Source of the DNA: Brevibacillus massiliensis
Lineage (GTDB): Bacteria > Bacillota > Bacilli > Brevibacillales > Brevibacillaceae
Direction of reading: 5' to 3'
Length of the DNA: 64,000 bases
NCBI RefSeq assembly: GCF_000311785.1
Contig: NZ_HE978536.1
Coordinates: forward strand, 54,287 to 118,286
Part shown: positions 7,626-34,239 of the stretch, piece by piece
Position numbering within the stretch: position 1 is the first letter of the stretch
How the letters are laid out: each line of letters begins with the position of its first letter
Translations under genes and position numbers: made by a program
The notes under the pieces: model-generated
The model's input: only the letters and a program-made list of their open reading frames with translations
Database searches by the model: none
What the model was told of the DNA's origin: nothing

Positions 7626-7705
7626 TACCTCCCAATAAAACCTATTTTCACCCTTAAAACAATATTCCACATCTTTCATTTATTCACCTTCTTCTAAAAA
7701 ACAGG

Positions 7706-7783: not shown

Positions 7784-8794
7784 GTGCAAATGGAAAAACT
7801 TGTCGATGTCTGCCGCGGAGGCAGGGTAGAAAGTTCTCACTATGGCCACATAGCTGTCGTCGCTTCCGATGGAAAATTGCTGTTTTCGCTGGGCGACCCC
7901 TATCGGAAAACCTATGCCCGTTCATCAGTAAAGCCGCTTCAAGCGATTCCGGTAGTAGAAACCGGAGCAGCGGACCGCTACGAATTAAGCGACGCCGATT
8001 TATCGCTATGCTGCGCTTCCCACAGCGGCGAAGCCCAGCACACGGAAAGGGTTTTGGCCATTCTAGGCCGGGCGGGAATCGGGGAAGACGCACTGCAGTG
8101 CGGGACGCATATTCCACATTCCCAGGATGCCTATCAGAAGCTGATTGCGGCGGGAAAAAAGCTTACTCCCCTGTACAGCAATTGTTCCGGAAAGCATACG
8201 GGAATGCTGATCACCGCCAAGCATATGGGGGAATCGCTGGAAGATTACTACAAACCGGATCATCCGGTGCAGCAGCGCATTCTTCAGGTGATCGCTGAGA
8301 TGGCGGATTATCCGATTGAACAGATTGAAATGGGGACGGATGGCTGCGGCGTGCCTGTCCATGCCCTTCCCCTGGAACGGCTGGCATACGCCTTTGCCAG
8401 GATGGCCCACCCGGATGATCTGGGGGAAAAACGGGCCAATACTGCAAACCGGATTACCGCTGCCATGATGAAGCATCCGGAAATGGTTGGCGGAACAGGC
8501 CGCTTCTGCACCGATTTTATGAAAGCTGCCAGAGGGCGCTTATTCGGCAAAGCAGGGGCCGAATCCGTCTACTTGATCGGCGACAGGCAAACAGGAGTCG
8601 GCATCGCCATCAAAGTAGAGGATGGAAACGGACGGGCCGCGTATCCGACCGCCCTTGAGACCCTTAGACAATTGGGGTTGCTGGATAAGTCACAGCTCGA
8701 CGAACTGGCACATCACTATCGGCCGATTGTAAAGAACGCCCGGCAGGAAAATGTCGGCGAACTGGTACCATCTTTTACGTTGCATAAGTGTTAA
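7784..8794 (+). CDS. Asparaginase_II family protein, copy 1
   Basis: 336 residues of the asparaginase_II family (PF06089), the Rhizobium etli inducible type, unrelated to the classic bacterial enzyme. All residues known for that active site are present: the Ser-x-x-Lys pair at S47 and K50, S79 in CASHSGE, the zinc-site Cys134 and Lys137 in NCSGKH, Cys188 in DGCGVP, and K277 in IAIKVEDG. Family enzymes hydrolyse L-asparagine; isoaspartyl substrates are conceivable but not shown by sequence. GTG 7784 is favoured because AAAAGGG lies ten bases upstream; ATG 7790 is the alternative. It leads an operon with an Opp transporter and has a paralogue at 24759-25781 in the same kind of context. Confidence 0.85.
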   Translation: MQMEKLVDVCRGGRVESSHYGHIAVVASDGKLLFSLGDPYRKTYARSSVKPLQAIPVVETGAADRYELSDADLSLCCASHSGEAQHTERVLAILGRAGIGEDALQCGTHIPHSQDAYQKLIAAGKKLTPLYSNCSGKHTGMLITAKHMGESLEDYYKPDHPVQQRILQVIAEMADYPIEQIEMGTDGCGVPVHALPLERLAYAFARMAHPDDLGEKRANTANRITAAMMKHPEMVGGTGRFCTDFMKAARGRLFGKAGAESVYLIGDRQTGVGIAIKVEDGNGRAAYPTALETLRQLGLLDKSQLDELAHHYRPIVKNARQENVGELVPSFTLHKC

Positions 8795-8832
8795 AACACT
8801 TTATGTAGATAAAAATGAAGGGGGAAAAAAAG

Positions 8833-10452
8833 ATGTTTAAACGAAAGTGCCTGTCTTCCGTTCTCATCTGCCTGATGGCTGCAAGCCTGGCCCTTGCAGG
8901 CTGTTCAGGCCAATCCAGTTCATCTGATGCAAGCCAGAAGCCGGTCGAAGGAACCTCGCAGGAAGCTCAGCCGCTGGCGAAAAAGGAAGGGAACAAGCTG
9001 ACGATCGCGGTGAAGGATAACTTTATCAGCATGGACCCGCACGACACCAACGATACTTTGTCCGGTTCCGTGCAAGCTACCATGTACGAAGGGCTGCTTG
9101 GCTTTGACAAGGATATGAAGATGATCCCTGTTCTCGCCGAGAGCTATGAAGCAAGTCCTGACGCGAAAGTATTCACCTTCAAACTGCGCAAGGGCGTCAA
9201 GTTTCACGACGGAACCCCGTTTAATGCGGAAGCCGTCAAGGTAAACATCGACAGATTGGCCAATCCGGACAACAAATTGAAACGGCACAGCCTGTTTGCC
9301 CTCGTCGACAAGACAGAGGCGGTAGACGAATACACCTTCAGGGTGACGTTGAAGGAACCATTTGGCGCCATGCTGAACAACTTCGCCCACCCGGCAGCGA
9401 GGATCATCAGTCCGCAAGCTTTGCAGAAATACGGGAAAGAAGTGTCCAAACATCCCGACGGAACGGGTCCGTTCAAATTTGTCGAGTGGGACCCGAGCGA
9501 TCACCTGACGGTCGAGAAGAATCCGGACTACTGGCAGCCGGGCCTGCCAAAGGTGGATGGCATCACGTTCAAGCCGGTGCCGGAAAACGGAGCCCGCGTA
9601 GCGATGCTGCAGACCGGCGAAGCCGATTTCATCTATCCGCTTCCGACCGAACAGGCGGAGTCGATCAACGGAAAAAACGGCATCGTTGTGGAGAACAACC
9701 CTTCCATCGTGATCCGCTACATGTCGATGAACACCATGAAGAAACCGTTTGACGATGTCCGTGTTCGTCAGGCGATTAACTACGCGATTAACAAAGAAGC
9801 TTTCTTAAAGGTCGTCTACCGCGGTTACGGCAGCGTGCTGGATTCGATCATCCCGCCGAAGCTGGCGTTCTACTCCCAGCAAACTCCGTACGAGTACAAT
9901 CCGGAGAAGGCGAAGCAGCTGTTAAAAGAAGCAGGTTATGAAAATGGCTTTGAAACAAACATCTGGGGAGCCAACAACTCCGATGCGATGAAAGCGATGG
10001 AATTCCTGCAGCAGCAATTGGGACAAGTAGGGATTAAGGTGAATGTGCTGCCGATGGAAGCCGGCACGCTAAGCGATAAGATCTGGTCCGTGCAAAATCC
10101 GCAGGATGCCGGAGTAGAGCTCTACTATGGCGGCTGGTCCTCTTCCACCGGAGATGCAGACTGGGGCATTCGCCCATTATTGGCCGGAGAATCGATTCCA
10201 CCGAAGTCCTACAACACGGCCTACTATCAGAATCCCGAGGTGGATAAACTGATTCAGGCAGCTCTGCAAACGGTAGATCCGGAAAAGCGCAAGCAGGCTT
10301 ATGCTGACATTCAGAAGCGCATTTGGGACGACGCGCCATGGGTGGGCCTCGTCGTCGAAGATACGATCTCGGGTAAAAAGAACTATCTGGAGGGCGTTTA
10401 CCTGCAGCCGGATGGTGCGCTGAATGTAACGAACGCAGAAATCAAAAGGTAA
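8833..10452 (+). CDS. Peptide ABC transporter binding lipoprotein, module 1
   Basis: A 539-residue SBP_bac_5 family protein (DppA/OppA type). The lipoprotein signal ends LALAGC near residue 23. Family motifs include [18 protein letters not shown] and the [12 protein letters not shown] segment. ATG 8833 follows GGGGG and an eight-base spacer. It captures peptides outside the membrane for the permease pair encoded downstream. The peptide specificity is not readable. A perfect hairpin separates it from oppB, so it is probably made in excess over the permeases. Confidence 0.9.
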
Positions 10453-10462
10453 AAAATGGAGA

Positions 10463-10490
10463 CAGAGCGCTAATGACGATTAGCGCTCTG
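10463..10490 (+). promoter_or_regulatory. Perfect intercistronic hairpin between oppA and oppB
   Basis: CAGAGCGCTAAT (10463-10474) and ATTAGCGCTCTG (10479-10490) form a 12-base-pair perfect stem with a GACG loop. There is no T-run after it, so it is likely an mRNA-protecting or processing stem that raises binding protein over permease. Module 2 has a different hairpin in exactly the same place. Confidence 0.6.
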
Positions 10491-10517
10491 CTCATCTTGG
10501 CAGACAGGAGGCGGGTT

Positions 10518-11438
10518 ATGTTTACGTATTTGATGAGACGATTGCTAGGTGTTGTCCCGATTTTACTGATCGTTTCCATCTTTGTCTTTTTGTTCGTTCA
10601 TTTAATCCCCGGAGACCCCGCGCGTCTGGTGGCCGGTCCTGATGCCAGCCAACAGGATGTGGAGCTGGTGCGCGAACAGCTCGGTTTGGACAAACCGCTC
10701 GCAGTACAGTACATCGCCTTCGTCGGGAAACTGTTACAAGGCGACTTGGGAACTTCGATGAAAACCAATCGGCCTGTATTTGATGAAATTGCGGCAAGAT
10801 TTATGCCTACCTTTTGGTTGACGGTGTGGAGCATGGCCTGGGCAATCATTTTTGGACTGCTGATCGGCGTGATCTCAGCGACAAAGCGAAACAAGTGGCA
10901 GGATTATGCCGGAATGTTTGGAGCGGTATCGGGCATCTCGCTGCCTTCCTTCTGGCTCGGCTTGATGCTGATCCAATTATTTTCGGTCAAGCTGGGGCTC
11001 TTCCCCACCGGGGGCAATGACACGTGGAAAGGATATGTGCTGCCCTCGCTGACCTTGGGCGCGGGAGTGGCTGCTGTGATCGCCCGGTTTGCCCGCTCCT
11101 CCCTGATGGATATTTTAAAGGAAGACTATATCCGTACAGGCAGGGCAAAAGGACTGAAAGAAAATATCGTCGTCTGGAAGCACGCCCTGAAAAACGCGAT
11201 GATTCCCGTCATCACCATGACGGGTTTGCAGTTCGGATTCTTATTGGGCGGTTCCATCGTCGTAGAGACCGTGTTCAGTTGGCCGGGATTGGGACGGTTA
11301 TTGATCGATTCTGTGTCGTTCCGCGACTATCCGGTGATCCAGGCAGAGCTGCTGCTTTTTGCGCTGGAATTCATTTTGATCAACTTGATTGTGGACATCT
11401 TGTACGCGGTGATGAATCCACAAATTCGATACGAATAA
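10518..11438 (+). CDS. Peptide ABC transporter permease, OppB/DppB type, module 1
   Basis: 306 residues with about six membrane helices. The N-terminal signature is [20 protein letters not shown] with HLIPGDPA, and the cytoplasmic EAA loop contains [13 protein letters not shown] 10518 follows AGGAGGCGGGTT; the open frame upstream of it includes the oppA-oppB hairpin and is not coding. The length is normal for the family. It pairs with the OppC-type protein next door to form the channel. Confidence 0.9.
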
Positions 11439-11456
11439 CGCAAGGGGGAAAAGGCG

Positions 11457-12365
11457 TTGGCAAACAACAGTGTAGTTGTACAACCTGATGGACGCGTCGT
11501 TCCGCAAGATGCGGAAAAAGCACGCACCCCGTTTTCAGAGTTTTGGCGGAAATTTAAAAAACAGCGATTGGCCGTGGTTGCCGGCTGCTTTATCATTTTG
11601 CTGTTCATTATCAGTCTGATCGGACCTTACATTACCCCCTATTCCGCCATTGAGCCGGACTACGACAATATATTGAGTCCCCCCACTTTGAAACATCTGG
11701 CGGGAACTGACGCATACGGACGGGATATTTTCAGCCGGATTATCGAAGGAACGCGGATCTCCTTGTTTGTCGGGTTAACCTCTGTTCTCGTGGGAGCGAT
11801 CGGGGGGACGTTCCTCGGATTAATCAGCGGGTTCTATGGCAAGTGGGTGGACAGTGTCATCATGAGATTCTGCGACGTCTTGTTTGCGTTCCCGGGAATC
11901 CTGCTCGCCATCGGGATTATTGCGATTTTAGGGCCGGGATTGGAAAATGTGATCATTGCCGTGGCCATTTTCAGCATTCCGATTTTTGCCAGGATTGTCC
12001 GCAGCAGCACCCTCTCCCTCAAGGCGACGATGTATGTAGAGGCCGCCCGCTCGATCGGCGCCTCCCCTCGGCGGATCATTTTCAAACACATCTTCCCGGG
12101 AACGCTGTCGAGCATTATCGTCTATTTTACCATGCGGATCGGCACTTCGATTTTGACAGCCGCCAGCCTTAGCTTTCTCGGTTTGGGCGCACAGCCGCCG
12201 TCGCCGGAATGGGGGGCGATGCTCAGTTCAGGGAGGGACTTTTTAAACACAGCCCCGCATGTCACCTTCTTTCCTGGATTTGCCATTTTCTTGACCGTGC
12301 TCGCTTTCAATCTGCTGGGTGACGGTTTGCGGGACGCCCTCGATCCCAAAATGAAAGACGAATAG
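11457..12365 (+). CDS. Peptide ABC transporter permease, OppC/DppC type, module 1
   Basis: 302 residues with the usual OppC pattern: a cytoplasmic N-terminus, helix 1 ([18 protein letters not shown]), a short outer loop of about 45 residues, then [13 protein letters not shown] and five further helices with the EAA loop [13 protein letters not shown]. The start is TTG 11457 with AAGGGGG eight bases upstream. Its short first outer loop is the reference for the greatly expanded loop in the module 2 counterpart. Confidence 0.9.
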
Positions 12366-12381
12366 CCAAAGGAGCGGTGTT

Positions 12382-13371
12382 ATGGACAACAAGCTATTGG
12401 AAATCGAAAATCTGAAAACGTACTTCTTCACCGACAGCGGCCGGGTCCCTGCCGTAAACGGCGTCGATCTGTTTATACGCGAAGGAGAGACACTGGGGAT
12501 CGTAGGCGAATCCGGCTGCGGTAAAAGCGTCACTTCGCTTTCCGTTATGCGCCTGCTTGCCCATACCCCCGGCAGAGTGGTCGACGGATCGATTCGCTTC
12601 GCGGGAATGGATCTGCTCTCGCTTCCGGAAAGCAAGATGCGGGAGATTCGCGGGAACGAAATCGCCATGATTTTTCAGGAGCCGATGACCTCCCTGAACC
12701 CGGTGTACAAAATCGGCGACCAGATCGGAGAAGCAGTGCGGCTTCACCTGAAATACGACAAGAAAAAAGCCCGCGAACGCGTGATTCAGATGCTGAAGCT
12801 GGTAGGTATCCCGCGTGCCGAAGAGATCGTGGACGAGTATCCGCACCAGCTGTCCGGCGGCATGAGACAGCGGATTATGATTGCGATGGCCATGTCTTGC
12901 GAGCCCAAGCTGCTGATCGCCGATGAGCCGACAACCGCGCTTGACGTGACGATTCAAGCGCAGATTCTCGATTTGATGCGAAAGCTCAAGGAAGAAAGAG
13001 GGACAGCCATCATGCTGATCACCCACGATTTGGGAGTTGTCGCCGAAATGTGCGATCGCGTCGTGGTCATGTATGCAGGGAAAGTGGTAGAGGAAGCCGA
13101 TGTTTTTGATATCTTTGAAAATCCCAAACATCCCTATACGCAAGGACTGCTTCACTCCATTCCAAAGCTGCGCCGGAAAACAGAGCGGCTGCAGTCGATT
13201 CCCGGCAATGTGCCCACCCCTGGCAATATGCCGAGCGGCTGCAAATTCGCTCCGCGGTGCTCGCATGCGATGGATGTATGCCGGGAACAAGAGCCTGATT
13301 TGCTGCAAATCGCCAGCGGTCATCGCTGCCGCTGTTTCCTGTATCAGAACGACTTGGCAAAGGAGGCCTGA
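12382..13371 (+). CDS. Peptide ABC transporter ATPase, OppD/DppD type, module 1
   Basis: 329 residues. Walker A is GESGCGKS, the Q-loop is [11 protein letters not shown], the signature is LSGGMRQRI and Walker B is [12 protein letters not shown]. The family's C-terminal extension carries the cysteine motif CKFAPRC.HAMDVC, which binds an iron-sulfur cluster in related Opp/Dpp ATPases. AAGGAG precedes the ATG. It works as a heterodimer with the OppF protein encoded four bases downstream. Confidence 0.92.
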
Positions 13372-13374
13372 AGC

Positions 13375-14343
13375 ATGGCAGAACAGCTGATAGAAGCAAA
13401 GAATCTGAAGAAGTACTTTCCCGTAAACAAAGGATTGTTTGGTCGGAAAAAATCGTATGTCCGCGCTGTCGACGGAGTCTCCTTCTCTATTTTTAAGGGG
13501 GAAACACTGGGTTTGGTGGGAGAGAGTGGTTGTGGAAAATCGACTACCGGACGTATAATTATGAGGTTATTGGCTCCCACTGAAGGGGAAATTAGATTTA
13601 ATGGGAAGGACATCAGCAGATTACCCGATCATCAATTGCGCGAACTCAGAAAAGAACTGCAGATGGTTTTTCAAGACCCTTACGCCTCGCTCAATCCGCG
13701 GATGACAGTAGGCGAAATCATCGCGGAGCCGTTGGTGGTCCATCGCACGGCAACGGGAAAAGAGCGGGACAAACGCGTTCAGGAACTTTTGGAACTGGTC
13801 GGCCTGTCTTCCTACCATGCGAACCGCTATGCCCATGAATTCAGCGGCGGCCAGCGGCAGCGCATCGGGATTGCCAGAGCTCTCGCGTTGCATCCGAAAT
13901 TGATTGTCGCTGATGAACCCGTTTCCGCATTGGATGTTTCGATTCAGTCGCAGGTGCTCAACCTGATGCAGGATTTGCAAAAAGAATTGGGGTTGGCGTA
14001 TCTCTTCATTTCCCATGATTTGAGCGTCGTCGAGCATATCAGTGATCGCGTAGGCGTAATGTACCTGGGCCGAATCGTCGAAATCGCGGAAAAAGACGAT
14101 TTGTATGACAAACCGCTGCACCCGTATACGCAGGCATTATTGTCCGCCGTTCCCGTAGCCGATCCGCGGATACGCAAAGAGCGGATTATCCTGGAAGGCG
14201 ATATTCCCAGCCCGTCCAATCCCCCGCAAGGATGTTCGTTTCATCCCCGGTGCAAGTCGTGCATGGACATTTGCAAAACTACGGTTCCCGAGTTGAAGGA
14301 GAGCGAGCCTGGTCATTTCACAGCCTGTCATTTGTATGGATGA
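13375..14343 (+). CDS. Peptide ABC transporter ATPase, OppF/DppF type, module 1
   Basis: 322 residues. Walker A is GESGCGKS, the Q-loop is [11 protein letters not shown], the signature is FSGGQRQRI and Walker B is [12 protein letters not shown]. The C-terminal oligopeptide-transport extension has [22 protein letters not shown] precedes the ATG, which is three bases after the oppD stop. It completes a full five-component importer. Confidence 0.92.
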
Positions 14344-14376
14344 TTCATGGTCGGTTTGCATAGGAGTGAAAAAACT

Positions 14377-16119
14377 TTGAGTGAAAAGATCTTAACAATC
14401 ATTTCCATACAAGACGAATTCTTGTCAATCATCTCAAAGCAACTGGCAGAGATAGCCGGAGATCAAGTCAGGATCCGTCCGATTTCGGTCAAACATCTGG
14501 CGAAAGAAACGATTGCTGAAGGAGAAACCGTCCTTGTGCCCTCCTCTTTTCTGCTGCCGCTGATCCGTCCTTTCCTGCCGCAAGGAGTTGCGTGTATCGT
14601 TGCCAAGCGCGGGCTCAACTTCGTAAACATGCGGGAACTGTTGGCCAGCGGGAAAGGAAAGAATATTTTGGTCGTAAACGACACCAAACTGCACACCGAT
14701 GAAACCGTTGCGGCGCTGCGGGAGATCGTATTTGAGCATAACTATTACGCGTATGATCCAGGCTCGCCGATTCCGGAGCAGATCGACTTTGTGGTTACCC
14801 CGGGAGAACGGCAGCTTGTGCCCGAGGGACCGATGAAAGTGATCGACATCGGCTACCGCATCCTTTCATTTGAAACGATTTGCGAAATTTTAGAGGCTTT
14901 GGGTTTGGGTTACGAATTATTTGTGATGGTCAATCGCTATATGAAATCGCTTGTTGCCTTGTCCAATGAGAGTACAACCTTCAAGATTGACTCGACGTTC
15001 GGCAAGCGGGCAGAGCATACGGACGGGAAAACCGCAAAATACTATTTTGAAGACGTGATAGCACACAGCCAGGCCATGAAAGATGTACTGCGGATTGCCA
15101 AAAAGCTGGCAAAAACACATAAACCCGTCCATATCTTTGGTGAAACCGGAACGGGCAAACGCATGCTGGCCCAGGCGATCCACAACGACTCTCCTGTCAA
15201 AGCGGGCCCGTACCTCAACATCAACTGTGCAGCAAGACCTGTGGACGTGCTGGAGAGGGAATTGTTCGGGATCGAACAGGAGGGGCGAATCTCCCCCGGC
15301 CTGTTTGAACTGGCGAATGGCGGTACGCTGTGTATTGAGGAAATTGACGAACTGCCCGTTTCCTTGCAGGGCCGCCTGCTGCAGGCTCTTGTGGAAGGAC
15401 AAATCATCAGGACAGGCGGGCATACACCGGTCCCGGTACATGTGCGAATCATCACCACCAGCAATATCGATCTCTCCGCGCAGATGGACGAAAGCAAATT
15501 TCGTAAGGATTTATTCTACTATCTGGCCGCATTAACCTGTGAAGTCCCCTCCTTGTCAAAGCGGATGGAGGATTTTGAGCCTCTGATCAATACGTATCTG
15601 CAATCCTCTTTGCAGCGGGCTGATCTGGTCATACCCTCAGAGGTGATTCAGCTTTTGAAGCGCTACCCCTGGCCGGGAAATGTAAGGGAATTGTTTAACG
15701 CCGTCTCCTACATGGCTTGTTTAGAAGAAAAAGTAATTAATGCTGACTTTTTGCCGTTCTATATTAAAGGAAGACTGCAGAACACTACTGATCTCCCGTT
15801 GCAGCAAGAGATGGACGAGCACGAACAAAACGAGCTGATCAAGCGAATTGAAGAACACGGTTTTTTGGAAGAAAGCTTGGCGATTCTCGAGGTTTTTGTC
15901 CAGGGCAAAAAGCAGCACGAGTCTTATGGCCGCAACATGGTGAGGAAGCTGCTGAAAGAAAAAAAAGTGATTTTATCGGAACAGCAGCTCAGGCTGCGGT
16001 TGGAAGTCCTCAATGAACTAGCGCTGTTAAACGTCCGTCAGGGTCGTTCGGGAACCACCATATCAAGAAAAGGCGAAGTGTTTTTGCAAAAGCTGCAGTT
16101 GAAAAATGGCGTACATTGA
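14377..16119 (+). CDS. Degenerate sigma-54-activator-like AAA+ regulator (lacks GAFTGA)
   Basis: About 580 residues from TTG 14377 (AGGAG ten bases upstream); ATG 14347 has no ribosome site. Residues 1-210 form an uncharacterised sensor-like domain shared with the module 2 activator. The AAA+ domain starts near 220 with Walker A GETGTGK (255-261). The loop that should read GAFTGA reads EQEGRISPG (about 299-307). Walker B is LCIEEIDEL, with Glu replacing Asp, and the arginine-finger region FRKDLFYYL has lost the second Arg. No PAS domain is present. The C-terminus (about 500-580) looks like a winged helix, not a Fis-type helix-turn-helix. It probably cannot open sigma-54 promoters and may act as a repressor or sigma-70-type regulator, as TyrR does. 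Confidence 0.8.
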   Translation: MSEKILTIISIQDEFLSIISKQLAEIAGDQVRIRPISVKHLAKETIAEGETVLVPSSFLLPLIRPFLPQGVACIVAKRGLNFVNMRELLASGKGKNILVVNDTKLHTDETVAALREIVFEHNYYAYDPGSPIPEQIDFVVTPGERQLVPEGPMKVIDIGYRILSFETICEILEALGLGYELFVMVNRYMKSLVALSNESTTFKIDSTFGKRAEHTDGKTAKYYFEDVIAHSQAMKDVLRIAKKLAKTHKPVHIFGETGTGKRMLAQAIHNDSPVKAGPYLNINCAARPVDVLERELFGIEQEGRISPGLFELANGGTLCIEEIDELPVSLQGRLLQALVEGQIIRTGGHTPVPVHVRIITTSNIDLSAQMDESKFRKDLFYYLAALTCEVPSLSKRMEDFEPLINTYLQSSLQRADLVIPSEVIQLLKRYPWPGNVRELFNAVSYMACLEEKVINADFLPFYIKGRLQNTTDLPLQQEMDEHEQNELIKRIEEHGFLEESLAILEVFVQGKKQHESYGRNMVRKLLKEKKVILSEQQLRLRLEVLNELALLNVRQGRSGTTISRKGEVFLQKLQLKNGVH

Positions 16120-16132
16120 AAAGGATCTGGTG

Positions 16133-17221
16133 ATGTTGACAATGAACAGAGTACGGCTTCGCGACCTTGGCCTTTCAATTGGAAGGTATGAAACAGGCAA
16201 ATACAATGCGATCACGGACATTCCCGGCGTCATGGTCGGACATGTCACCCTGTCCGAACAAATCGCAGAAGATCGCGCCATTCGCACCGGCGTGACAGCC
16301 ATCCTCCCGCATCCGGACAACCTCTTCCGGGAAAAGGTGCTGGGAAGCTGCCATGTGATCAACGGATTTGGCAAAACGGTTGGAACCATCCAGCTGCAAG
16401 AGCTGGGCACGATCGAAAGTCCGATCCTCTTGACCAATACCCTATCCGTCCCTGCCGTTCTGGAAGGCACGATTCGCTACCTCCTCGACCAAAATCTTGA
16501 AATTGGCGACACGACGGGAACCGTGAATGTCATCGTGGGAGAATGCAACGACGGATACCTCAACGATATACGCGGGCTGCATGTAAGACCGGGACACGCC
16601 CGCCAAGCGATTCAATCCGCGAAGTCCGGCGTGGTGGAAGAGGGCTGCGTCGGGGCGGGTACCGGGATGTCCTGTTTGGGGTATAAGGGCGGGATTGGAA
16701 CCAGCTCGAGAATCGCCGCCTTCGGACAGCGGCAGTACACCATCGGGGCGCTGGTGCTGAGCAATTTTGGCAAGAAGGCGGATTTGCGCCTGCCCGGCGG
16801 CGGAGTGCTGCCTGTTTCATCGCCTGATCCCGATAAGGAAAAAACCCCGGATGGGTCGATCATGATCATTCTCGCGACAGACGCTCCGCTGAGCGAGAGA
16901 CAGCTCGGGCGAATCGCCAAACGGGCCGCCTTCGGTCTGTCCCGTACCGGGTCTTACGCGGCCCACGGCAGCGGCGACATCGTCATCGCCTTCTCTACGG
17001 CGCACCGCATTCCCCACCGCCCCGAGCCGCATCAAGACACCCTCCCCTACGCCTTCCTCAGAGAGGACGGGGAATGGATGTCCCGCCTGTTCGAGATGAC
17101 GGCGGAAGCCGTGGAAGAAGCGATCTGGAATTCCCTGTGCATGGCATCTACCACGGTGGGACAGAAAGGCCGGGTTCGGGAGGCGATTCCGTATCACATC
17201 CTGCTGGCGGGGAGAGTTTGA
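16133..17221 (+). CDS. P1/S58-family aminopeptidase (DmpA-like)
   Basis: About 362 residues of the DmpA/BapA family, N-terminal nucleophile enzymes that remove L-, D- or beta-amino acids from peptides and amides after autocatalytic cleavage. Visible landmarks are TDIPGVMVGH, TNTLSVPAV, VGECNDG, VGAGTGM and the Gly-Ser at DGSIMIILATDA. The new N-terminal serine is about residue 242. ATG 16133 has AAGGAT upstream; ATG 16106 overlaps the regulator gene and is less likely. It is the last gene of module 1. Its specificity complements the D-aminopeptidase at the other end of the module. Confidence 0.85.
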   Translation: MLTMNRVRLRDLGLSIGRYETGKYNAITDIPGVMVGHVTLSEQIAEDRAIRTGVTAILPHPDNLFREKVLGSCHVINGFGKTVGTIQLQELGTIESPILLTNTLSVPAVLEGTIRYLLDQNLEIGDTTGTVNVIVGECNDGYLNDIRGLHVRPGHARQAIQSAKSGVVEEGCVGAGTGMSCLGYKGGIGTSSRIAAFGQRQYTIGALVLSNFGKKADLRLPGGGVLPVSSPDPDKEKTPDGSIMIILATDAPLSERQLGRIAKRAAFGLSRTGSYAAHGSGDIVIAFSTAHRIPHRPEPHQDTLPYAFLREDGEWMSRLFEMTAEAVEEAIWNSLCMASTTVGQKGRVREAIPYHILLAGRV

Positions 17222-23455: not shown

Positions 23456-24712
23456 TTATTTTTTGGGCAAGTGCTCCAGTTCTTTTACCTGCACTTCGAT
23501 CGGGATGATATCCATGTTGACATGCAACGCGGTCGAAGCGTACTCATCGCTGTCGTAGTACCCTTTCGTCTGTGCGGTCTTGCTGAACACGACGGTGAAG
23601 CCGCTGCCTTTGCCGTTCTTCTGGTCAAGGGCAAAAGTCAGGCCCCGTGCCTCCCTGGCCGTATTGTCCATCAGATCGTCCAAAAGAGCGGTCTTGGCAG
23701 CGTCACTTCCAAAGATGTTGGTATTCAGCTCATTGCCCTCGTAGTATTCCTGTCCAGGCCGGATCAGCGTCTTCGAGGAGTGGACCGTAAACTCCTTCGT
23801 GGCAAAATTGTACTTGTCGCCTTTTTCCAGGTAGGATACGTCTATACCGAGATAGGCTCCTTTCTTGGTGTATTCAGCCTTTGACGCGTCGACCAAAAAC
23901 ATCCCGCTGGCTCCGATGACCTCAATCTCATTGCCGCTGACGACCATTGCCGAGTTTTCGTCAATCCCGAACCCGTAATTGATTTTTTCGTGGACCAATG
24001 CGACGACCAGACGGCCGAGCCTCCCCCGCTTGCTGAAGTGCTGGTCGGTAATCCCCGCCTCAAAGAAACCGAGTCCCTTCGTCACCCAGAGACCGGGCTT
24101 TTGCTCGTCATATGTGACGCCTTTTTGCAGCGCTTCCAGCGAGGTGGCATTCAGGATCATCGGATCAGACATGATCGCGGCGCCCGCGGAAGAGCCTGCA
24201 ATCAGCCCGCCCTCCCTGTACACGTCCCAGACGGCGTCAAGCGCTTTGGAGTTGGAGCCGTCCGCATTGTAGAACGCTTTGGTAACCCGCGACTGGTCGC
24301 CGCCTACGAAGTAAAGTGCCGTACATTCGGATATGGCCTTGACGATCTCGTCGTTATTCACTTGATCCTTGTAGTTTTTCTCGGTAATTTCGATGATCCG
24401 GACATTCTCTGCCGGCACGCCGTAATCCTCAAAATCCTGCTTCATGCTCCGCGATGAAGACATGGATGCGCTCGCTGTCGGAAAAATGCCGATGACCGCA
24501 TCCTCCTTGCCGCCGGCCAATTCGATCATTTTATTGTAAATCTCGGCGTTGCCAGTCTCCAACCCCCCGCCGATGATGACGAGGCTCCCCTTGACAGATG
24601 CATCGGCTATCTCATCTTCCGCGGCAGCGGACGACATGTCGGCAGTCAACATCGAAACGAGCAGCAAAGCGGTCAAACAGGAAGAAAAAATCGATCGCAG
24701 CTTGTTTTTCAT
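23456..24712 (-). CDS. Secreted cyanophycinase-like S51 peptidase
   Basis: 418 residues from ATG 24712 (GGGGGAAT upstream). A signal peptide of about 30 residues has no lipobox. The S51/cyanophycinase core follows: VIIGGGLE, FVGGDQSR, the nucleophile serine in GSSAGAA (about S175), and DQHFSKRGRLGRL. About 150 further residues lie C-terminal to the core. Secreted cyanophycinases cut multi-L-arginyl-poly-L-aspartate into beta-Asp-Arg dipeptides. It is the last gene of the sigma-54-controlled module 2, after an Opp importer and an asparaginase_II enzyme, which would suit uptake and splitting of such dipeptides. S51 members also include alpha-aspartyl dipeptidases, so the substrate is inferred. 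Confidence 0.82.
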   Translation of the reverse strand: MKNKLRSIFSSCLTALLLVSMLTADMSSAAAEDEIADASVKGSLVIIGGGLETGNAEIYNKMIELAGGKEDAVIGIFPTASASMSSSRSMKQDFEDYGVPAENVRIIEITEKNYKDQVNNDEIVKAISECTALYFVGGDQSRVTKAFYNADGSNSKALDAVWDVYREGGLIAGSSAGAAIMSDPMILNATSLEALQKGVTYDEQKPGLWVTKGLGFFEAGITDQHFSKRGRLGRLVVALVHEKINYGFGIDENSAMVVSGNEIEVIGASGMFLVDASKAEYTKKGAYLGIDVSYLEKGDKYNFATKEFTVHSSKTLIRPGQEYYEGNELNTNIFGSDAAKTALLDDLMDNTAREARGLTFALDQKNGKGSGFTVVFSKTAQTKGYYDSDEYASTALHVNMDIIPIEVQVKELEHLPKK

Positions 24713-24758
24713 TTGATAGATTCCCCCTCTCATCTTGTCGTTGTTTTTTCGCGTTCCC

Positions 24759-25781
24759 TTACATCTCCGGACACTTCACTCCTTTCAATTGAAAGACCGG
24801 CTCGAGCCTGCCGACGGTCTCTCCCCTTCTGTTTGTAATCTTAGGAAGGCGATATGCACTCAGCATCTCTTCCTCCTGTGGGGTCAGCACTCCCAGTTGT
24901 CTGAGCGCCTCAGCGGCAGCAGGATAGGAAGCACGCGGTGCCCCGTCCTCTACCTTGATCGCGATCCCGATGCCTCTATCAAGCAATCCCAGACAATAGA
25001 CGCCTTCTGCTCCGCCTTTGGCCAGGACCTTCCCCCCGCACGTTCGCATGACATCTGTGCAAAACTCATTGGTACCGCTGACCATTTCCGGGTACCGCAC
25101 CATTGCTTGGGTGATTCTTTTGACCGCCTGTCTCGTCGAGTGCCCCAGGCTTGCAGGATTGGAGAGCCGGGCGTACAGGTAGGCCAGCTTGTCCAAAGGC
25201 AGGGCAAATGTGGGTACCCCGCAGCCGTCGATCGCCGTCTCCAGCTCTTCTGCAGCCACTCCAGACAGTTCGCTCACAGCCTCTGCTACCTTCCGCTGTA
25301 CCGGATGGTCCGCGTGATGGTACAGAGCTGCATCGCTTTGCAGATGAAGGGCCAGCGCCAGCATTCCCGCGTGCTTTCCGGAACAGTTGTTGTGCAGCGG
25401 CGTCGGTTCCCCTCCCCTTTTCAACAGGGCGGCGTAGCTCTCATGGCTGTACGGCGGATGTGTGCCGCACTGCAGATGCTCTGCCCCGAGTCCAAGCCGG
25501 AACAGGATCGACTCCACCACTTGCGTATGCTGCTCTTCGCCGTTGTGGGAAGCACAGCACACCGCGATCTCTTTCTCGTTGAACAGGTAACGTTCCGCCG
25601 CGCCGGATTGGATCAAAGGGATCGCCTGAACCGGTTTTAGCGACGAGCGGCTAAACGTCAATCTTTGGACGTCGCCGACCCCGTACAACAGGTTTCCTTT
25701 CTCGTCCACGACGGCAATGCTGCCCGTGTGTCTGCTCTCAATATGCTCTCCGCGCTTTGCTACTACGATGGTTTCGGCCAT
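24759..25781 (-). CDS. Asparaginase_II family protein, copy 2
   Basis: 340 residues, the same PF06089 family as the protein at 7784-8794. All known active-site positions are kept: S46 and K49 in SRSSLKP, S78 in CASHNGE, C133 and K136 in NCSGKH, C187 in DGCGVP, K276 in IAIKVEDG. ATG 25781 has AAGGAGT nine bases upstream and lies 13 bases after the oppF stop. The retention of a full active site in both copies argues against decay and for distinct substrates or regulation. No signal peptide is present, so it acts on imported material. Confidence 0.85.
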   Translation of the reverse strand: MAETIVVAKRGEHIESRHTGSIAVVDEKGNLLYGVGDVQRLTFSRSSLKPVQAIPLIQSGAAERYLFNEKEIAVCCASHNGEEQHTQVVESILFRLGLGAEHLQCGTHPPYSHESYAALLKRGGEPTPLHNNCSGKHAGMLALALHLQSDAALYHHADHPVQRKVAEAVSELSGVAAEELETAIDGCGVPTFALPLDKLAYLYARLSNPASLGHSTRQAVKRITQAMVRYPEMVSGTNEFCTDVMRTCGGKVLAKGGAEGVYCLGLLDRGIGIAIKVEDGAPRASYPAAAEALRQLGVLTPQEEEMLSAYRLPKITNRRGETVGRLEPVFQLKGVKCPEM

Positions 25782-26776: not shown

Positions 26777-27748
26777 TTACTCTGCGTGCAGCCAGCAGCG
26801 GCAGGCGTGTTTTTCTTCGATGGAAAAGAGCTCTGGTGCTTCTTTGGCGCAGCGCTCCATGACAGAAGGGCATCTATCCCGAAACCGGCAGCCTCGAGCA
26901 ATCGATCCCGGCGCAGGCACCTGGCCGGATATCGAGTACAGCCGGCGTCTTTTTTCTTCGATCTTGGGGATGGATTGCAGCAATCCGCGTGTATAGGGAT
27001 GCTTTGGATTGTGGAACAGCGCGTCGACGTCCGCTTCCTCGACGATCTCCCCCGCGTACATGACCATCACCCGGTCGCACATCTCCGCTACCACACCCAG
27101 GTCGTGAGTGATAAACAGGATGGCTGTCTGCGTCTTCGCTTTCAAGCTTTTCATTAGATCCAGGATCTGCGCCTGAATCGTCACATCGAGCGCTGTCGTC
27201 GGCTCGTCGGCGATGAGCAGCCCGGGATCGCAGGCCAGACCGATGGCGATCATCACCCGCTGCCGCATCCCTCCCGACAATTCGTGCGGATAGCTGGCAT
27301 ATATCTGTTCGGCTCTGGAGATCCCGACCCGCTTCAGCATTTCAATCGATCTCGCTTTCGCCTGTTTTTTTGACAGGTTGGTGTGCAGGCGAATCACTTC
27401 GTCCAACTGCCTCCCGATCGTAAAGACAGGCGTGAGGGAGGTCATCGGCTCCTGAAAAATCATCGAAATCTCGTTGCCGCGGATTTTATTCCAATCTTTC
27501 TCTTTTAGTGCCAGCAGATTGGCGCCGTTGTAGCGAATTTCCCCTTCGACGATCCTGCCCGGCGGCGACGGAACGAGTCCCATGATGGACAGGGACGTGA
27601 TGCTTTTTCCGCAGCCCGATTCGCCGACCAGCCCGAGCGTCTCTCCTTTACGGATATGGAAGGAAATGTTATTGACGACCGTATATTCCTTGCCTTCATT
27701 GCGAAAATTCACTTTGAGATTTTTTACATCCAATACGATTTCCGCCAC
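26777..27748 (-). CDS. Peptide ABC transporter ATPase, OppD/DppD type, module 2
   Basis: 323 residues starting at GTG 27748 with TAGGTGG upstream. It has Walker [29 protein letters not shown] and [12 protein letters not shown]. The C-terminal extension includes [14 protein letters not shown]. The length is standard. It lies 12 bases after oppC and 13 before oppF. Confidence 0.92.
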
Positions 27749-27760
27749 GATTCACACCAC

Positions 27761-29314
27761 CTAATCCTTTAATTTGGGGTCCAGCGCATCCCGCAGTCCG
27801 TCGCCCAGCAGATTGAAACTGAGCACGGTCACGACGATGGCAAGGCCGGGAAAAAAGGTGGGATGAAACAAATTGCGGCTGTTGTCCTTGGCTGCGCTCA
27901 GCATGGCTCCCCACTCCGGTGCGGTAATGTCGCCGCCGAGTCCCAGGAAGCTGAGCGAAGCCCCGATCAGGATCGCTGTGCCGATCCGCATGGTCAGGTA
28001 TACCATGACGATCGATAACGTTCCGGGAAAGATGTGGCGCATGAGGATCACCCGATCCTTTACGCCAATCGACTTGGCTGCCTCCACATAGGTCATTTGT
28101 TTTACAGAGAGCGTGCTTCCCCGGACGATCCGGATGAAGATGGGAACAGTAAACACCGCGACGGCAAAAATGATGTTGACGATGCCCGGCCCGAGTAGAG
28201 CGATGACGGCGATCGCCAGCAAAATCCCGGGAAACGCCAGCAGCACATCCGTGCATCTCATAATCAGCGCATCCAGCCAACGGCCATAGTAACCGGCCAG
28301 CAAGCCGAGAAACGTTCCGATGGCAGCCCCGATCGACACGGAGACAAATCCGATCAACAGCGTCTCCCTCGTTCCGACCAGGACGCGGCTGAAGATATCC
28401 CGGTTCTGATGATCCGTACCAAACAGGTGCATGCCGGAAGGCGGTTGGTGCTTGTACCTATTGATCAGGTCTATCGCCAGCTCCTCCGGCACCAATCTGG
28501 TCACGATCGGCTTGGACAGCGGCTGGTTGACCGCAAGCGGGATGAGCGTGGAAACGCCGTCCAAAGACACCTTTACTGCCGTTTCTCCTGCTCCGACGGC
28601 TTTGATTGCGCCATCACTGCCCACCTGCACCACATCTGGCTCTAAGGAAGTAAAGGTCAAACCATGGCTGTCATCTGTCACTCTTGTATTTCCAAAACCG
28701 TCATTGGCCGCCGGTTTTATCGCCGGCATGGCTGCGTTCTTCTCGACATAGGCGGCGATTTCGTTCATGCCGGCCAGTTCGGTGCCGTCAGTTAAAACAG
28801 CTTTCACCTTTGCTGTTTGTTCGGCGCCAAGCTCCAGCGAATGCTGCTGAACGTCGGCAATCAGTTGGGAGACGTACGCCTGACCGTTGTCCTCCCCCGA
28901 GACGATCACCTTAAAGCGGGACGCTGCCTCGCCAGCTGAGAGGAGGATCGCAGTCGAACCGTCTCCATTCGCGTTGACAATGACATTCTCCCCCGCTTTT
29001 CTCGCGGAAGCGATCTGTCTGTCAGCGCTGTCAAGGGTAAGATGGCCGAGCTCCTTTGCGCGTTTTATCGTCCCGTCGCTCATCACCGCTTCCACCTTCA
29101 CGCTCGCACTGGTCAGCCGCCCTGCTTCAATTCCTTTGGCCGCGTATTGGTCCGTCACCGGCCGATAGGGATCATAGGGAGCAAGCCAGGGAGCGAGCAG
29201 TGCCACAGCGATGATGCAGAGGATGAGACCCAAGGAGATGACGGCAAACCGCTGCCTTAAAAACTTCTGTAAAAAGACCCGAAAAGGAGATGGCGATTTT
29301 TGCTGATTCATCAT
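27761..29314 (-). CDS. OppC/DppC-type permease with a large inserted Ig-like extracytoplasmic region
   Basis: 517 residues against about 300 for the family. Residues 1-50 hold the normal N-terminus and helix 1 ([20 protein letters not shown]). Residues from about 296 onward are an ordinary OppC core ([13 protein letters not shown], five helices, [13 protein letters not shown]). Between them lie about 235 extra residues in the first outer loop. Two parts resemble bacterial Ig-like Big_2 domains: [11 protein letters not shown] (72-82) to about 137, and [11 protein letters not shown] (168-178) to about 262 with [19 protein letters not shown]. The frame is continuous and ATG 29314 has AAGGAG seven bases upstream. 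It may dock the binding protein or wall material; that is inference. Confidence 0.88.
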
Positions 29315-29328
29315 AATGGTTCTCCTTC

Positions 29329-30252
29329 TTACTCGTAGCGAATTTGCGGATTCAACAGGCCGTAGCTGACATCGACCAGCAGATTCACGACCAAAAACTG
29401 GACGGAAAACAGCAGGATGAGCGCCTGGATGACCGGGTAATCGCGGGTCAGGATCGAGTCGATCAGGTACGACCCCAACCCCGGCCAGGCAAACACCTGC
29501 TCGACCACAACCGCACCGCCCAGCAAAATGCCGAATTGCAGTCCGGTCATCGTCACCACCGGGATGAGCGCGCTGCGCAGGACGTGTGTCATCACGATGA
29601 CCCAGCCCCTCTGCCCTTTGGCCCGGGCCGTCCGCACGTAGTCCTCGCGAAGCACATCAAGGACGCTCGACCTGGTAAATCGCGCGACAATCGCAGCCAC
29701 TCCCAGCCCCAAAGTCAAGGAAGGCAGGATGAGATGCTCCAGCCCTCCGCTGCCGCTGGTCGGCAGCCATCCGAGCTGTACGGCAAAGATCTGCATCAGC
29801 ATCAGGCCAAACCAGAACTCGGGGATACTCAGCGCCGTGATCGTCGTGACCATGCCCAGCCTGTCCCAAATGGTATTGCGCTTCGTCGCCGAGATGATGC
29901 CTACGGCAAGTCCGATCACCACGGCCCACAGCATGCTGGCCAGCGTGAGAACGAGGGTATAGCAAAGCCGCCTCACGATCTCCTCTGATACGTTTGACTT
30001 CGTCCGATAGGAGATGCCAAAGTCGCCCTGTGTCACGATCTTTTTGATGTAACGGCCATACTGCACGTACAGGGGATCATTCAACCCCTCTTTTTGCTTC
30101 AGCATTTCGTATGCAGCCGGACTGATCTCCGTCCCGTACAGCACGCGGATCGGATCTCCCGGCGTCAGGTGAACAAATAGAAAGGAGATGATCGAAACGA
30201 CAATCAAGAGCGGAATCATTCCGGCGACCCGTCTGACAATGAAGCTGAACAA
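29329..30252 (-). CDS. Peptide ABC transporter permease, OppB/DppB type, module 2
   Basis: 307 residues from TTG 30252, with GAGGTGG five bases upstream; the open frame upstream contains the oppA-oppB hairpin and is not coding. It has the N-terminal signature [30 protein letters not shown], and an EAA loop with [13 protein letters not shown]. The length is normal, unlike its OppC partner. About six membrane helices are visible. Confidence 0.9.
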
Positions 30253-30287
30253 CCCGTCCACCTCTTCTCGTGTAAACGTGAGCCAAC

Positions 30288-30311
30288 GGGGCTGCTCTGG
30301 GGAGCAACCCC
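30288..30311 (-). promoter_or_regulatory. Intercistronic hairpin between oppA and oppB, module 2
   Basis: Read on the minus strand, GGGGTTGCTC (30311-30302) pairs with GAGCAGCCCC (30297-30288) over ten positions with one G-T pair and a four-base loop. No T-run follows. Its sequence differs from the module 1 hairpin, but its position between oppA and oppB is the same. Confidence 0.5.
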
Positions 30312-30329
30312 TGCCGGCTCTTTTATCCG

Positions 30330-31952
30330 TTAGTTCTTTTCCGCATCGTTGACGAGCACAGTGTCGCTTGGCAGCACGGTTACGCCCGTAACGTCCTTGG
30401 ATTTGGCCACGACGTTGTCCGGGACGTGCAGGAATACCCATGGTGCATCCTCATAGATGATCTGTTGGGCCTGCGCGTATTTTTTCAGTGCCTCTTCCTG
30501 GTTGGGCGTGACCAGTGCGTCGTCCAGCAGCTTATCTACTTCTTTGTTGCTGTAGAACCCGGAGTTGTTGAAGCTCGGCGCGAAGCTGGCGGTGTGGAAG
30601 TTGGGACGCAGCCCATAGTCCGCTTCCCCTGTACCCGGTGACCAGCGGCCAATCCAGAGATCTGTCCCTTTTTCATGGTCCAGCATGTCGAACAGCGTGC
30701 CGCTCTCATACGGCTGCACCTTCGCTTTTATACCAATTTTTTCAAGCTGGATTGTCACATTTTCCGCAATCGCGATGAATTCGCTTGAGTTTCTCGTCCA
30801 GAGCACCGCGTCAAAGCCGTCTTTGTAGCCCGCTTCCGCCAGCAGCTGTTTGGCTTGCTCCGGGTTGTACTCGTAGACTTTTTGCTGGCTGTAGCCGAAG
30901 GTATGGGGTGCAATCGCGGAGTCGGCCACCTGGGCGTAGCCGTCTACCACTCCAGCGATCAAGTCGTCCTTGTTGATGGCGTAATTCATCGCCTGCCTGA
31001 CCCGCTTGTCCTGGTACTTTTTCAGCTTCAGATTCATGCCGACGTAGTACACATTCAGCGACGGCGCTGTAAAGAGGTTGAAGCTGCTGTCCTGGCTGAT
31101 CTCTTTGGCGCTCTGTGTCGGCAGTTTGGAGATGACGTCCGCTTCCCCGGCCTTCAGCATGTTAATTCGCGTGCCCGCTTCAATCACCGGCTTGTAGACG
31201 ATGCTCTCCACCTTGGCTTTATGCGCCTGATCCCAGTAGTTCTCATACGGGACGACTTTGACGTACTGGTTGTCCTTCCATTCGGCAAACTTGAACGGCC
31301 CGGTGCCGACAGGATTGCGGTCCAGGTTGAAGCCGGGATCGGCCTTCTTTTTGTTCAACGACTCGAGAGATTTGAATGCGGCGGATGGATGAGCCAGGTA
31401 CGATACCATCGCCGAGTTGGGTTCGGCAGAGACGATCGTGACATGGGTCGGGTCTTTGACGATAACCTCTTTGATAAAGGAGAAATAATTATTGCGGGCC
31501 AGCCCGTTCTTCTCGTCGCGGACGAAGTCCAGATTCGCTTTTACCACATCTGCGTTAAACGGCGAACCGTCGTGAAACGTGACCCCTTCGCGCAGGGTAA
31601 ACGTCACTTCTGTCGCATTGTCGTTAAACTTGTACTCGGTCGCGAGCAGCGGGACCGGCTTCATCTGATCATTGAACGTCATCAGCCCTTCGAACATCGG
31701 CCGCTGTACCGTGAGCGAGTTGCCGTCCGTCACGTTTTGCGGGTCCAGCGAGACCGGTTCCGCTTCCACTGCGACGGTGATCGTTTTCGGCTCCGCGCTT
31801 TGCTTTGTCTGGCTGCCCTCCGCCGCCGGTGCCGCGCCGGTATTGGCCGGCTCCGTTTTGGTTTCAGTCGGTGCCGGCGAACACCCGGCGAACAGTCCGG
31901 CCGCCAGCATGATACCAAGTCCTAACCGCAGTCTCTTCCACTTTGCCAACAA
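30330..31952 (-). CDS. Peptide ABC transporter binding lipoprotein, module 2
   Basis: 540 residues of the SBP_bac_5 family. The start is TTG 31952 with AGGGGGT nine bases upstream; a second TTG follows directly. The lipoprotein signal ends AAGLFAGC near residue 23. Family segments include FTLREGVTFHDGSPFNAD and VRQAMNYAINKDD. It is the first gene after the sigma-54 promoter, so it is the most strongly induced product of module 2. The ligand is unknown; beta-Asp-Arg or other isoaspartyl peptides are suggested by the genes downstream. Confidence 0.9.
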   Translation of the reverse strand: MLAKWKRLRLGLGIMLAAGLFAGCSPAPTETKTEPANTGAAPAAEGSQTKQSAEPKTITVAVEAEPVSLDPQNVTDGNSLTVQRPMFEGLMTFNDQMKPVPLLATEYKFNDNATEVTFTLREGVTFHDGSPFNADVVKANLDFVRDEKNGLARNNYFSFIKEVIVKDPTHVTIVSAEPNSAMVSYLAHPSAAFKSLESLNKKKADPGFNLDRNPVGTGPFKFAEWKDNQYVKVVPYENYWDQAHKAKVESIVYKPVIEAGTRINMLKAGEADVISKLPTQSAKEISQDSSFNLFTAPSLNVYYVGMNLKLKKYQDKRVRQAMNYAINKDDLIAGVVDGYAQVADSAIAPHTFGYSQQKVYEYNPEQAKQLLAEAGYKDGFDAVLWTRNSSEFIAIAENVTIQLEKIGIKAKVQPYESGTLFDMLDHEKGTDLWIGRWSPGTGEADYGLRPNFHTASFAPSFNNSGFYSNKEVDKLLDDALVTPNQEEALKKYAQAQQIIYEDAPWVFLHVPDNVVAKSKDVTGVTVLPSDTVLVNDAEKN

Positions 31953-32008
31953 ATTGCATCGACCCCCTGATGATTTTTTTTGTAAACGAGCTTGCACGAT
32001 TAAGCAGT

Positions 32009-32024
32009 AGCAATCCTTGTGCCA
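32009..32024 (-). promoter_or_regulatory. Sigma-54 (-24/-12) promoter of the module 2 operon
   Basis: The minus strand reads TGGCACAAGGATTGCT, matching the consensus TGGCAC-N5-TTGC in every fixed position. The GG (-24) and GC (-12) elements have the required spacing. Transcription would start near 31998, about 45 bases before the oppA start. A sigma-54 activator gene is divergent and begins 158 bases away. Confidence 0.88.
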
Positions 32025-32100
32025 ATGGGGCAGCGGGCCAGGCCGGGCAGAAATGACCCAAAACAAGTCTATTTATTCCGAATTTTCCTATTAAAATGAC

Positions 32101-32181: not shown

Positions 32182-34239
32182 ATGCCTGTAAAAGAGATTA
32201 TCCTCCTCACCGGGACGAAGGAAACGAGAAAAACCCTGGTCAAACAGCTGGAAGAAGTGATCGGAGATTTTGTCCGCATTCATCACGAATCGCTTGAGGA
32301 GAACATTTCCGGTGTCTTTTCAAACAAATTGATCATCCTGTCCTCACCCGAGATCACGGAGGAGACTGCTCCCTACATCGGCGTGGGCTGCAAAGTGCTG
32401 GTAGCCAAGCGCACCGTGAATTTTGAACATATCGACAAGCTGCTGTTTCTTGCGTCCAAAACCAAAGCACTCTACGTCAACGACGGTCCTGACACCGTCT
32501 ACGAATCGGTCGAAACGCTGCTGCAGCTGGGCATTAATCACATCGAGTACATCCCCTGTTACCCGGGGAAGAAAAACATCCCCGAGGTGGAGTTCGCGAT
32601 AACGCCGGGAGAGGTGGATTTGGTTCCTCCCTTTGTCAAAGAAGTGGTGAACATCGGCCCGCGATTGATCGATATCACGACGGTCATGACGATCCTGCAG
32701 GAGCTTGACCTGCTGAAACAAAAGGGGGATATCGTCTCGGACAAGTACATCCGCAAGATCATCGACCTGAGCAAGAAATTGTCGATCACCAGCCGCCAAT
32801 CCGACCAGCTAAACAGGCATTTGAAGCACGTGCTTGACGGGGTGAACGACGGGATTCTGGCCGTCAACAGCAAGGCGATGATCACGGTATGCAACGAGAA
32901 CCTGACGAACATGCTGGGCCTCTCCTCGGGAAAAACCGTCGGCCGAAACCTGCAGGACGTTTTGCGGAATGCCGAGTTGGCATCGTTCATTTTGACCGAC
33001 TCGGAGGAAGAGACCGGGTGGTTTTCGCTTCACTCCGGAGATGTGCTCGTCCATCGCTTCCACCTCAAGACAGAGGATACCATCGTCGCTACCTTTCAGA
33101 ATGCGCATGAAACGATCGAGTTGGAAAAATCCTATCGCCGCGAGCTGTTGAAAAAGGGATACATCGCCAAATTTACCTTTCAGGATATCAAGGGCGTCAG
33201 CAGCAGCATCGAAAAAACCAAGGAAATCGCCAGGAAGATCGCCAAAACCAATCTGACCGTGCTGATCGAAGGGGAAAGCGGAACGGGAAAGGAATTGTAC
33301 GCGAGCGCGATTCACAACGCTTCCCTGCGGCAGGAAGGGCCGTTTCTCGCCGTAAACTTCAGCGCTCTGCCGGAAGATCTGGTCGAGAGCGAACTGTTCG
33401 GATACGAAGAAGGGGCTTTTACCGGGGCGAAAAAAGGCGGAAAAATCGGGCTATTTGAACAGGCCAGCGGCGGGACGATCTTTCTTGACGAAATCGGCGA
33501 TATCAGCTTGAAGCTGCAGGCCAGGCTGCTGCGGGTGCTGCAGGAAAAAGAGATCATGCGGGTCGGCGGCAACAAGATCATCCCCGTAGACGTACGGGTG
33601 ATCGCAGCCACCAACAAGGATCTGCTGAAAATGATCGAGGCGGGCACTTTTCGCGAAGACCTGTACCATCGCCTGAAAATCCTCTACATCCGCCTGCCGG
33701 AGCTGAGAACCCGCAAAGAGGACATCCATCCGCTCATTCGCCACTTTATGTTTCAGAGCGGCCGCAGCCAGATCGAGATCAAGCCGGATGTCCTGGAACA
33801 GCTCATGTGCTATCAGTGGTACGGCAATGTGCGGGAATTGAAAAACACCATCGACTACATGCTTGCAGTCTGCGACGGCAACGTCATCACCATCGACGAT
33901 ATCCCCAACGAGAGCTTCTTTCAGCGCAAATCGCGGGAAAACAGGGAAGTGCAGCCAATTGCCGAGGAGCTTCCCGCCGATCGCGAGGAAGCACTGTTTA
34001 TCCTGGAGGCTGCTTTTCACGCAAACGATGCAGGGCAGCCCATCGGCAGAAAAAAGCTGGCAGAGAAAAGTGCACATTGGCGAAGGCCTCTCAGCGAGCA
34101 GCAGATTCGCAAGCGCTTGGCTCTTCTTGAGGAGAGCGGGTATATTGCCACCAGCAGGGGCCGCACCGGGATCAAACTGACCCGGCTGGGGGTTGATTAC
34201 CTGTTGGCAAATCGGCCCGATTTGATCGGGAAGCTGTGA
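32182..34239 (+). CDS. Sigma-54-dependent transcriptional activator with winged-helix C-terminus
   Basis: 685 residues. Residues 1-180 form an uncharacterised sensor-like domain shared with the module 1 regulator, and 210-310 a PAS-like domain. An intact AAA+ domain follows: Walker A GESGTGK (364-370), GAFTGA (411-416), Walker B FLDEIGD (434-440) and FREDLYHRL (490-498). Where most family members end in a Fis-type helix-turn-helix, residues 600-675 read as a winged helix ([30 protein letters not shown]). AAAGAAAGGA precedes ATG 32182. It is divergent from the operon with the sigma-54 promoter and is the obvious activator; the signal is probably a peptide or amino acid. Confidence 0.88.

Follow-up and report, generated by a model that had tools for sequence, protein, structure and literature searches.

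The P2 domain of MalF is located between two helices that correspond to TM1 and TM2 in the permeases considered here. In MalFGK2-E this large extracytoplasmic domain, carried by one of the permease subunits, contacts the binding protein (PMC3150292). In the E. coli peptide importer DppABCDF, the receptor DppA caps DppB and DppC, and a scoop motif of DppB reaches into the cleft of the receptor; the TM1-TM2 regions face the periplasm (PMC12136057). E. coli DppC and OppC (of DppABCDF and OppBCDF; PDB 8z1v, 8z21) lack an Ig-like insert in their TM1-TM2 segment, the docking element of the E. coli system being the DppB scoop motif (PMC12136057). Domains of the Big_2 type, for their part, mostly occur in secreted or surface proteins, not in transporter permeases. 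Cyanophycin is a polymer in which nitrogen is stored. In the cyanophycin utilization locus of Ben Hania et al., as it is cited in PMC10206079, a cyanophycinase, a dipeptidase and a transporter cluster in genomes that have no CphA1. The isoaspartyl dipeptidases of Bacillota are stated to be still undiscovered (PMC10206079).

The window analyzed here, a 64,000-nucleotide stretch of DNA from Brevibacillus massiliensis, encodes a peptide importer that shares with the E. coli systems the permease core, TM1, a five-gene operon and separate D and F ATPases, and differs from them in a real, conserved domain insertion of single origin in its OppC-type subunit. We found no earlier description of Ig-like insertions in OppC in the literature searched, and one may exist elsewhere.

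An OppC-type permease with two Ig-like domains

The features of the permease are as follows (all on the minus strand; coordinates are those of the window):

27761..29314, minus: OppC/DppC-type permease with insert (P0001), 517 aa; ORF and translation, PF12911 and PF00528, PDB relatives DppC/OppC
29198..29251, minus: predicted transmembrane helix 1, residues 22-39; helix in the model, OppC_N match
28448..29146, minus: inserted region, residues 57-289; alignment with module 1 OppC and 22 insert-bearing relatives
28889..29119, minus: Ig-like domain 1, residues ~66-142; seven predicted strands, pLDDT mostly >90, homologous to domain 2
28517..28879, minus: Ig-like domain 2, Big_2 type, residues ~146-266; LigA 8gyr_A match, PF22359, Big_2 in relatives
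28664..28768, minus: extra helix and disordered loop in domain 2, with Gly206-Phe207; helix 183-194, low pLDDT 195-216, alignment
27764..28429, minus: permease core, residues 296-517; PF00528, VIA-align to E. coli DppC

The reading frame starts at an ATG and has no internal stops. PF12911 (OppC_N) matches residues 9-55 (47.3 bits against a cut-off of 23.9) and PF00528 (BPD_transp_1) residues 333-516 (105.2 bits against 26.4), and the OppC/DppC-type assignment agrees with the co-encoded OppB, two ATPases and family 5 solute-binding protein (SBP). The model of the whole protein aligns to E. coli DppC with a VIA-align Z of 25.8 over 272 residues; against the GsiD glutathione permease family (NF011662) the protein scores 353.8 bits, below the equivalog cut-off of 484.

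A second Opp operon of the window, module 1, encodes a 302-residue OppC (11457-12365). Since this protein aligns with the 517-residue one only at residues 3-56 (31% identity) and over the core at 290-517 (64% identity), an extra part of ~230 residues (~57-289) can be delimited between TM1 and the GTD motif, where the module 1 protein has a linker of ~15-20 residues. The original prediction had given both lengths correctly and had placed ~235 inserted residues between helix 1 and the GTD motif, outside the cell; the alignment bears out the position, and the solved DppC, through its topology, bears out the side. The insert would then be an extracytoplasmic TM1-TM2 segment, its position taken from alignment and model and its side from the solved relative.

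Structure prediction, which had been proposed beforehand as a check on the insert, yielded a beta-rich fold. For the whole 517-residue protein AlphaFold2 gave a mean pLDDT of 73 and values of mostly 80-89 across the insert; modeled alone, the insert reaches a pLDDT of 84.5 and a pTM of 0.80. From its N-terminal end the insert shows seven strands (residues 69-138), a second set of strands (148-181), a helix (183-194), a disordered loop (195-216), more strands (220-262) and a last hairpin. Among solved structures, the closest folds are found in LigA, in SbsC and Sap, both S-layer proteins, and in a Big_2-CBM56 protein from Paenibacillus. The match to LigA (8gyr_A; VIA-align Z 10.2, rmsd 2.0, 87 residues, 20% identity) lies wholly within domain 2. 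For domain 1 itself the VIA list contains no strong structural match, and its Ig-like fold is assigned solely from the predicted strands and from its homology to domain 2. That homology is above chance: the profiles of the two halves, in which the common 'DGT' pattern noticed at the outset recurs at residues 72-82 and 168-178, align with 97% probability (E 9e-11), as against 0.2% in a control with the permease core. Pfam Big_2 (PF02368, E <= 0.01) is matched by 16 of the 23 insert-bearing members, the best at 5.1e-7, and the insert of the window itself reaches 24.4 bits with the Big-like PF22359, below its cut-off of 27. A Rad52 match in a single member of the 23 (E 9e-4) was judged to be due to chance.

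Given the fold matches, the homology of the two domains and the breadth of the Big_2 matches, the insert is a tandem pair of Big_2-type domains; a resemblance to Big_2 domains had been noticed from the letters of the window. It shares fold and sequence pattern with the domains of LigA, SbsC and Sap, and departs from the usual Big_2 domain by its host protein and by the helix and loop added to domain 2. In this loop, Gly206-Phe207 are kept in 22 of 23 alignment rows, the mean weighted conservation of the loop around them being 0.36.

A single gain in one clade

Full-length, insert-bearing relatives are encoded at more than 20 loci, in Brevibacillus, Sutcliffiella, Salipaludibacillus, Alkalihalobacterium and one Saccharospirillum metagenome-assembled genome (MAG). 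Among 58 other genomes of the organism's own family and class, six were found to encode seven further full-length relatives; a wider genome collection gave 19 loci with the insert, partly from the same organisms, Sutcliffiella here including Bacillus horikoshii. The insert sits at the identical place in every full-length relative. Its carriers are few (nine of 399 sampled Bacilli genomes), and none of the relatives was found on a plasmid. In a tree computed from the core only (95 sequences, 20 with the insert), all carriers form one clade with support 100/100, and the module 1 OppC falls in the adjoining insert-free group. The absence of insert-free members from the clade is informative because the collection was scanned with core motifs ([LM]H[WL]FGTDH and [VT]NIIFAVA) and not with the insert. 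The insert was thus gained once, in the ancestor of the clade, and no loss is seen.

Recurrence of the same full-length architecture at more than 20 independent loci excludes the assembly join that had been named as a refutation of the inserted domains. An artefact of assembly, frameshift or gene calling, for which we found no point in favor, therefore has a negligible probability. The long N-termini of several further OppCs (L137, L103, L135, L112, L108, L114, L118, L109), and the 637-residue open frame of another (G034), come from over-extended ORF starts; none of these proteins has an insert.

A sigma54-controlled operon mostly linked to cyanophycinase

The genes around the permease form a run on one strand, in the order SBP, OppB, OppC, OppD, OppF, asparaginase II and cyanophycinase, with a divergent sigma54 activator:

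32182..34239, plus: divergent sigma54-dependent activator; PF00158 3.1e-68, conserved beside the operon
32009..32024, minus: sigma54 -24/-12 promoter TGGCACaaggaTTGCT; sole perfect match in 64 kb, conserved 5' of the SBP gene in sister operons
30330..32066, minus: family 5 solute-binding lipoprotein; PF00496 6.6e-91, GsiB-like, FAGC lipobox read from the sequence, true start probably downstream of the ORF start
29329..30441, minus: OppB-type permease; PF19300, PF00528, alignment, ORF start probably too early
26777..27748, minus: OppD-type ATPase; PF00005, PF08352
25795..26901, minus: OppF-type ATPase; PF00005, PF08352, ORF start probably too early
24759..25781, minus: asparaginase II family protein, candidate intracellular beta-aspartyl dipeptide hydrolase; PF06089 6.7e-126, position held by IadA in sister operons
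23456..24733, minus: cyanophycinase with signal-peptide-like N-terminus; TIGR02069 170 bits against a cut-off of 126.6, PF03575

SBP, OppB, OppC, OppD and OppF are common to all insert-bearing operons, and the activator adjoins every one of them except L075, whose available DNA stops at the SBP gene. A perfect match to the sigma54 promoter lies near the SBP start at 12 of 21 other loci scanned and a match with one mismatch at two more, against a background of 18 in 640 stretches of equal length with at most one mismatch. The genes downstream vary. One Brevibacillus group, including the window, has the asparaginase II protein and a cyanophycinase of 410-420 residues; Sutcliffiella, Alkalihalobacterium and the genome G362 have a long cyanophycinase (790-930 residues) and IadA; Salipaludibacillus has IadA alone; a second Brevibacillus group has an M20 peptidase; and Saccharospirillum has neither a cyanophycinase nor a dipeptidase gene. 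The IadA of the sister operons exceeds the TIGR01975 cut-off, the long cyanophycinases score below that of TIGR02069, and the cyanophycinases of the short- and long-type groups are only ~30% identical. The long secreted enzymes (793-928 aa; L080:12533-14914 and L092:12478-15264) have an N-terminal Cadherin-like beta-sandwich domain (PF12733) and an intervening stretch that gives no clear match. This context, sigma54-controlled, mostly cyanophycinase-linked and confined to one clade, was absent from the original prediction.

Of the nine insert carriers among the 399 Bacilli genomes, six have a cyanophycinase; of the remaining 390 genomes, 68 do (Fisher p 0.002). This association is to be taken as supportive only, the test ignoring relatedness and eight of the nine carriers being of one family. 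Stronger evidence is proximity: in all six carriers that have a cyanophycinase, it lies within ~5 kb of the insert-bearing gene. The genome of the window has no cyanophycin synthetase over the cut-off (TIGR02068, best 135 bits against 850), and a cyanophycinase and transporter without synthetase would fit the pattern of a scavenger (PMC10206079). The locus resembles that of Ben Hania et al. in this pairing; it differs in its transporter, an insert-bearing Opp system under sigma54 control, and in having an asparaginase II family protein where the dipeptidase would stand. Because this protein stands where IadA stands in sister operons, in a genome with no IadA over the cut-off and no IaaA match, we consider it a candidate new beta-aspartyl dipeptidase of Bacillota. 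The importer would take up beta-aspartyl or other short peptides, and the operon provides a candidate peptide importer for environmental cyanophycin together with a candidate dipeptidase. The assignment of this substrate fails for the clade as a whole because three insert-bearing Brevibacillus genomes (G026, G028, G031) have no detectable cyanophycinase; the same three rule out, as a general rule, that the insert is an obligate partner of that enzyme.

Possible role of the insert

We posit, with a probability of roughly 45%, that the insert is an extra docking arm for the receptor of a short-peptide importer; binding to the lipoprotein receptor, the other option of the original prediction, may thus apply. 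In this reading a heteromeric type I importer (SBP, OppB, OppC, OppD and OppF), to which the 517-residue protein contributes the OppC-type half, serves a scavenging operon that the sigma54 activator turns on for the uptake of short peptides. The most likely cargo in the lineage of the window would be beta-aspartyl dipeptides, which the secreted cyanophycinase would free extracellularly and the asparaginase II family enzyme would cleave within the cell. Having entered the TM1-TM2 segment of OppC a single time, in the clade ancestor, the two Big_2-type domains would lie outside the membrane, beside or under the SBP lipoprotein, and like the P2 loop of MalF would hold or orient it on the translocator. 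The arm would add to the OppB scoop motif and not replace it, and the disordered loop of domain 2 with its Gly-Phe pair is the best candidate contact.

What favors such an arm is the presence of the insert in every member of the clade, the near-invariant Gly-Phe pair in a poorly conserved loop of low pLDDT, the presumed position next to the receptor, the normal scoop and the MalF precedent. An insert in the TM1-TM2 segment of the C subunit should neighbor the receptor; the scoop-motif region of OppB has its normal form in all insert-bearing operons by alignment, which argues for an addition to the scoop; and MalF P2 is the closest functional precedent. MalF belongs to another transporter family, its chains match the whole model weakly (3puy_F E 6e-4, TM 0.26), and the present insert consists of two Big_2 domains of presumably separate origin. 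In a mirror-tree comparison the partial distance correlation of insert and SBP is 0.21, a value as high arising in one of 2000 permutations; this signal is weak and unspecific, since OppD and OppF give 0.18 and 0.15. Against docking, related insert-free operons work with an ordinary OppC, the Saccharospirillum copy has no Gly-Phe loop, and the insert evolves much faster than the core (mean distances of 1.09 and 0.22), as might be expected of a spacer under loose constraint. A true arm would give type I ABC importers a second docking device of independent construction, built from domains typical of adhesins and S-layers, and would be a test case for receptor specificity gained by insertion of a domain into a permease. 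The more specific version, namely an independently evolved MalF-P2-like arm from two adhesin-type Big_2 domains, its Gly-Phe loop engaging the substrate-loaded receptor, specialized for beta-aspartyl dipeptides of cyanophycin and working together with a new isoaspartyl dipeptidase of the asparaginase II type, we hold to be doubtful.

That same rapid divergence (identities of 27-54% for the insert and of 82-89% for the core), along with the existence of near insert-free relatives, would also suit a passive, lineage-specific decoration or spacer of little function, retained because it is harmless. We nonetheless think this unlikely: none of the 20 distinct clade sequences has lost the insert, the gammaproteobacterial and Bacillaceae copies included, and the reading frame, both domains, the near-invariant Gly-Phe pair and the flanks QY..G and KHQPPS have all been retained. 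The insert could alternatively recruit the secreted cyanophycinase, or cyanophycin itself, so that dipeptides are handed directly to the transporter, as the presence of the enzyme in the same operon in most carriers and the N-terminal beta-sandwich domain of the Sutcliffiella-type enzyme might suggest. The three Brevibacillus genomes that have the insert and not the enzyme, the M20 peptidase in its stead in the second operon type, and the low identity between the cyanophycinases of the two groups make this quite improbable. Anchoring of the importer beneath the wall by binding of a cell-wall polymer would draw on the kinship of the closest folds with S-layer protein and adhesin domains; but Big_2 domains serve as scaffolds quite generally, the analysis turned up no wall-binding motif, and the same architecture occurs in the Gram-negative Saccharospirillum MAG, where the SBP lacks a lipobox. 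Nothing was found in support of wall-polymer binding, which the original prediction had raised, and we rate its chance as slim. Wall binding and cyanophycinase docking are both weaker explanations than receptor docking.

Variant copies of the operon

Module 1 (7784-17221, plus strand) is a scavenging system of a related kind whose permease has no insert; it includes an asparaginase II protein of its own, a PrdR/PrpR-like sigma54 activator and a DmpA-type S58 aminopeptidase; an M55 D-aminopeptidase (6801-7679) is encoded near it on the opposite strand. The insert-bearing operon of the Saccharospirillum MAG (L088; Gammaproteobacteria) comes with activator and promoter, in DNA of 57% G+C whose flanking proteins we take, from reading them by eye, to be gammaproteobacterial, which suggests transfer between phyla. 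Brevibacillus fluminis (G004) has two insert-bearing Opp operons, one of each type (L038 and L039), ~63 kb apart, pointing to duplication and specialization.
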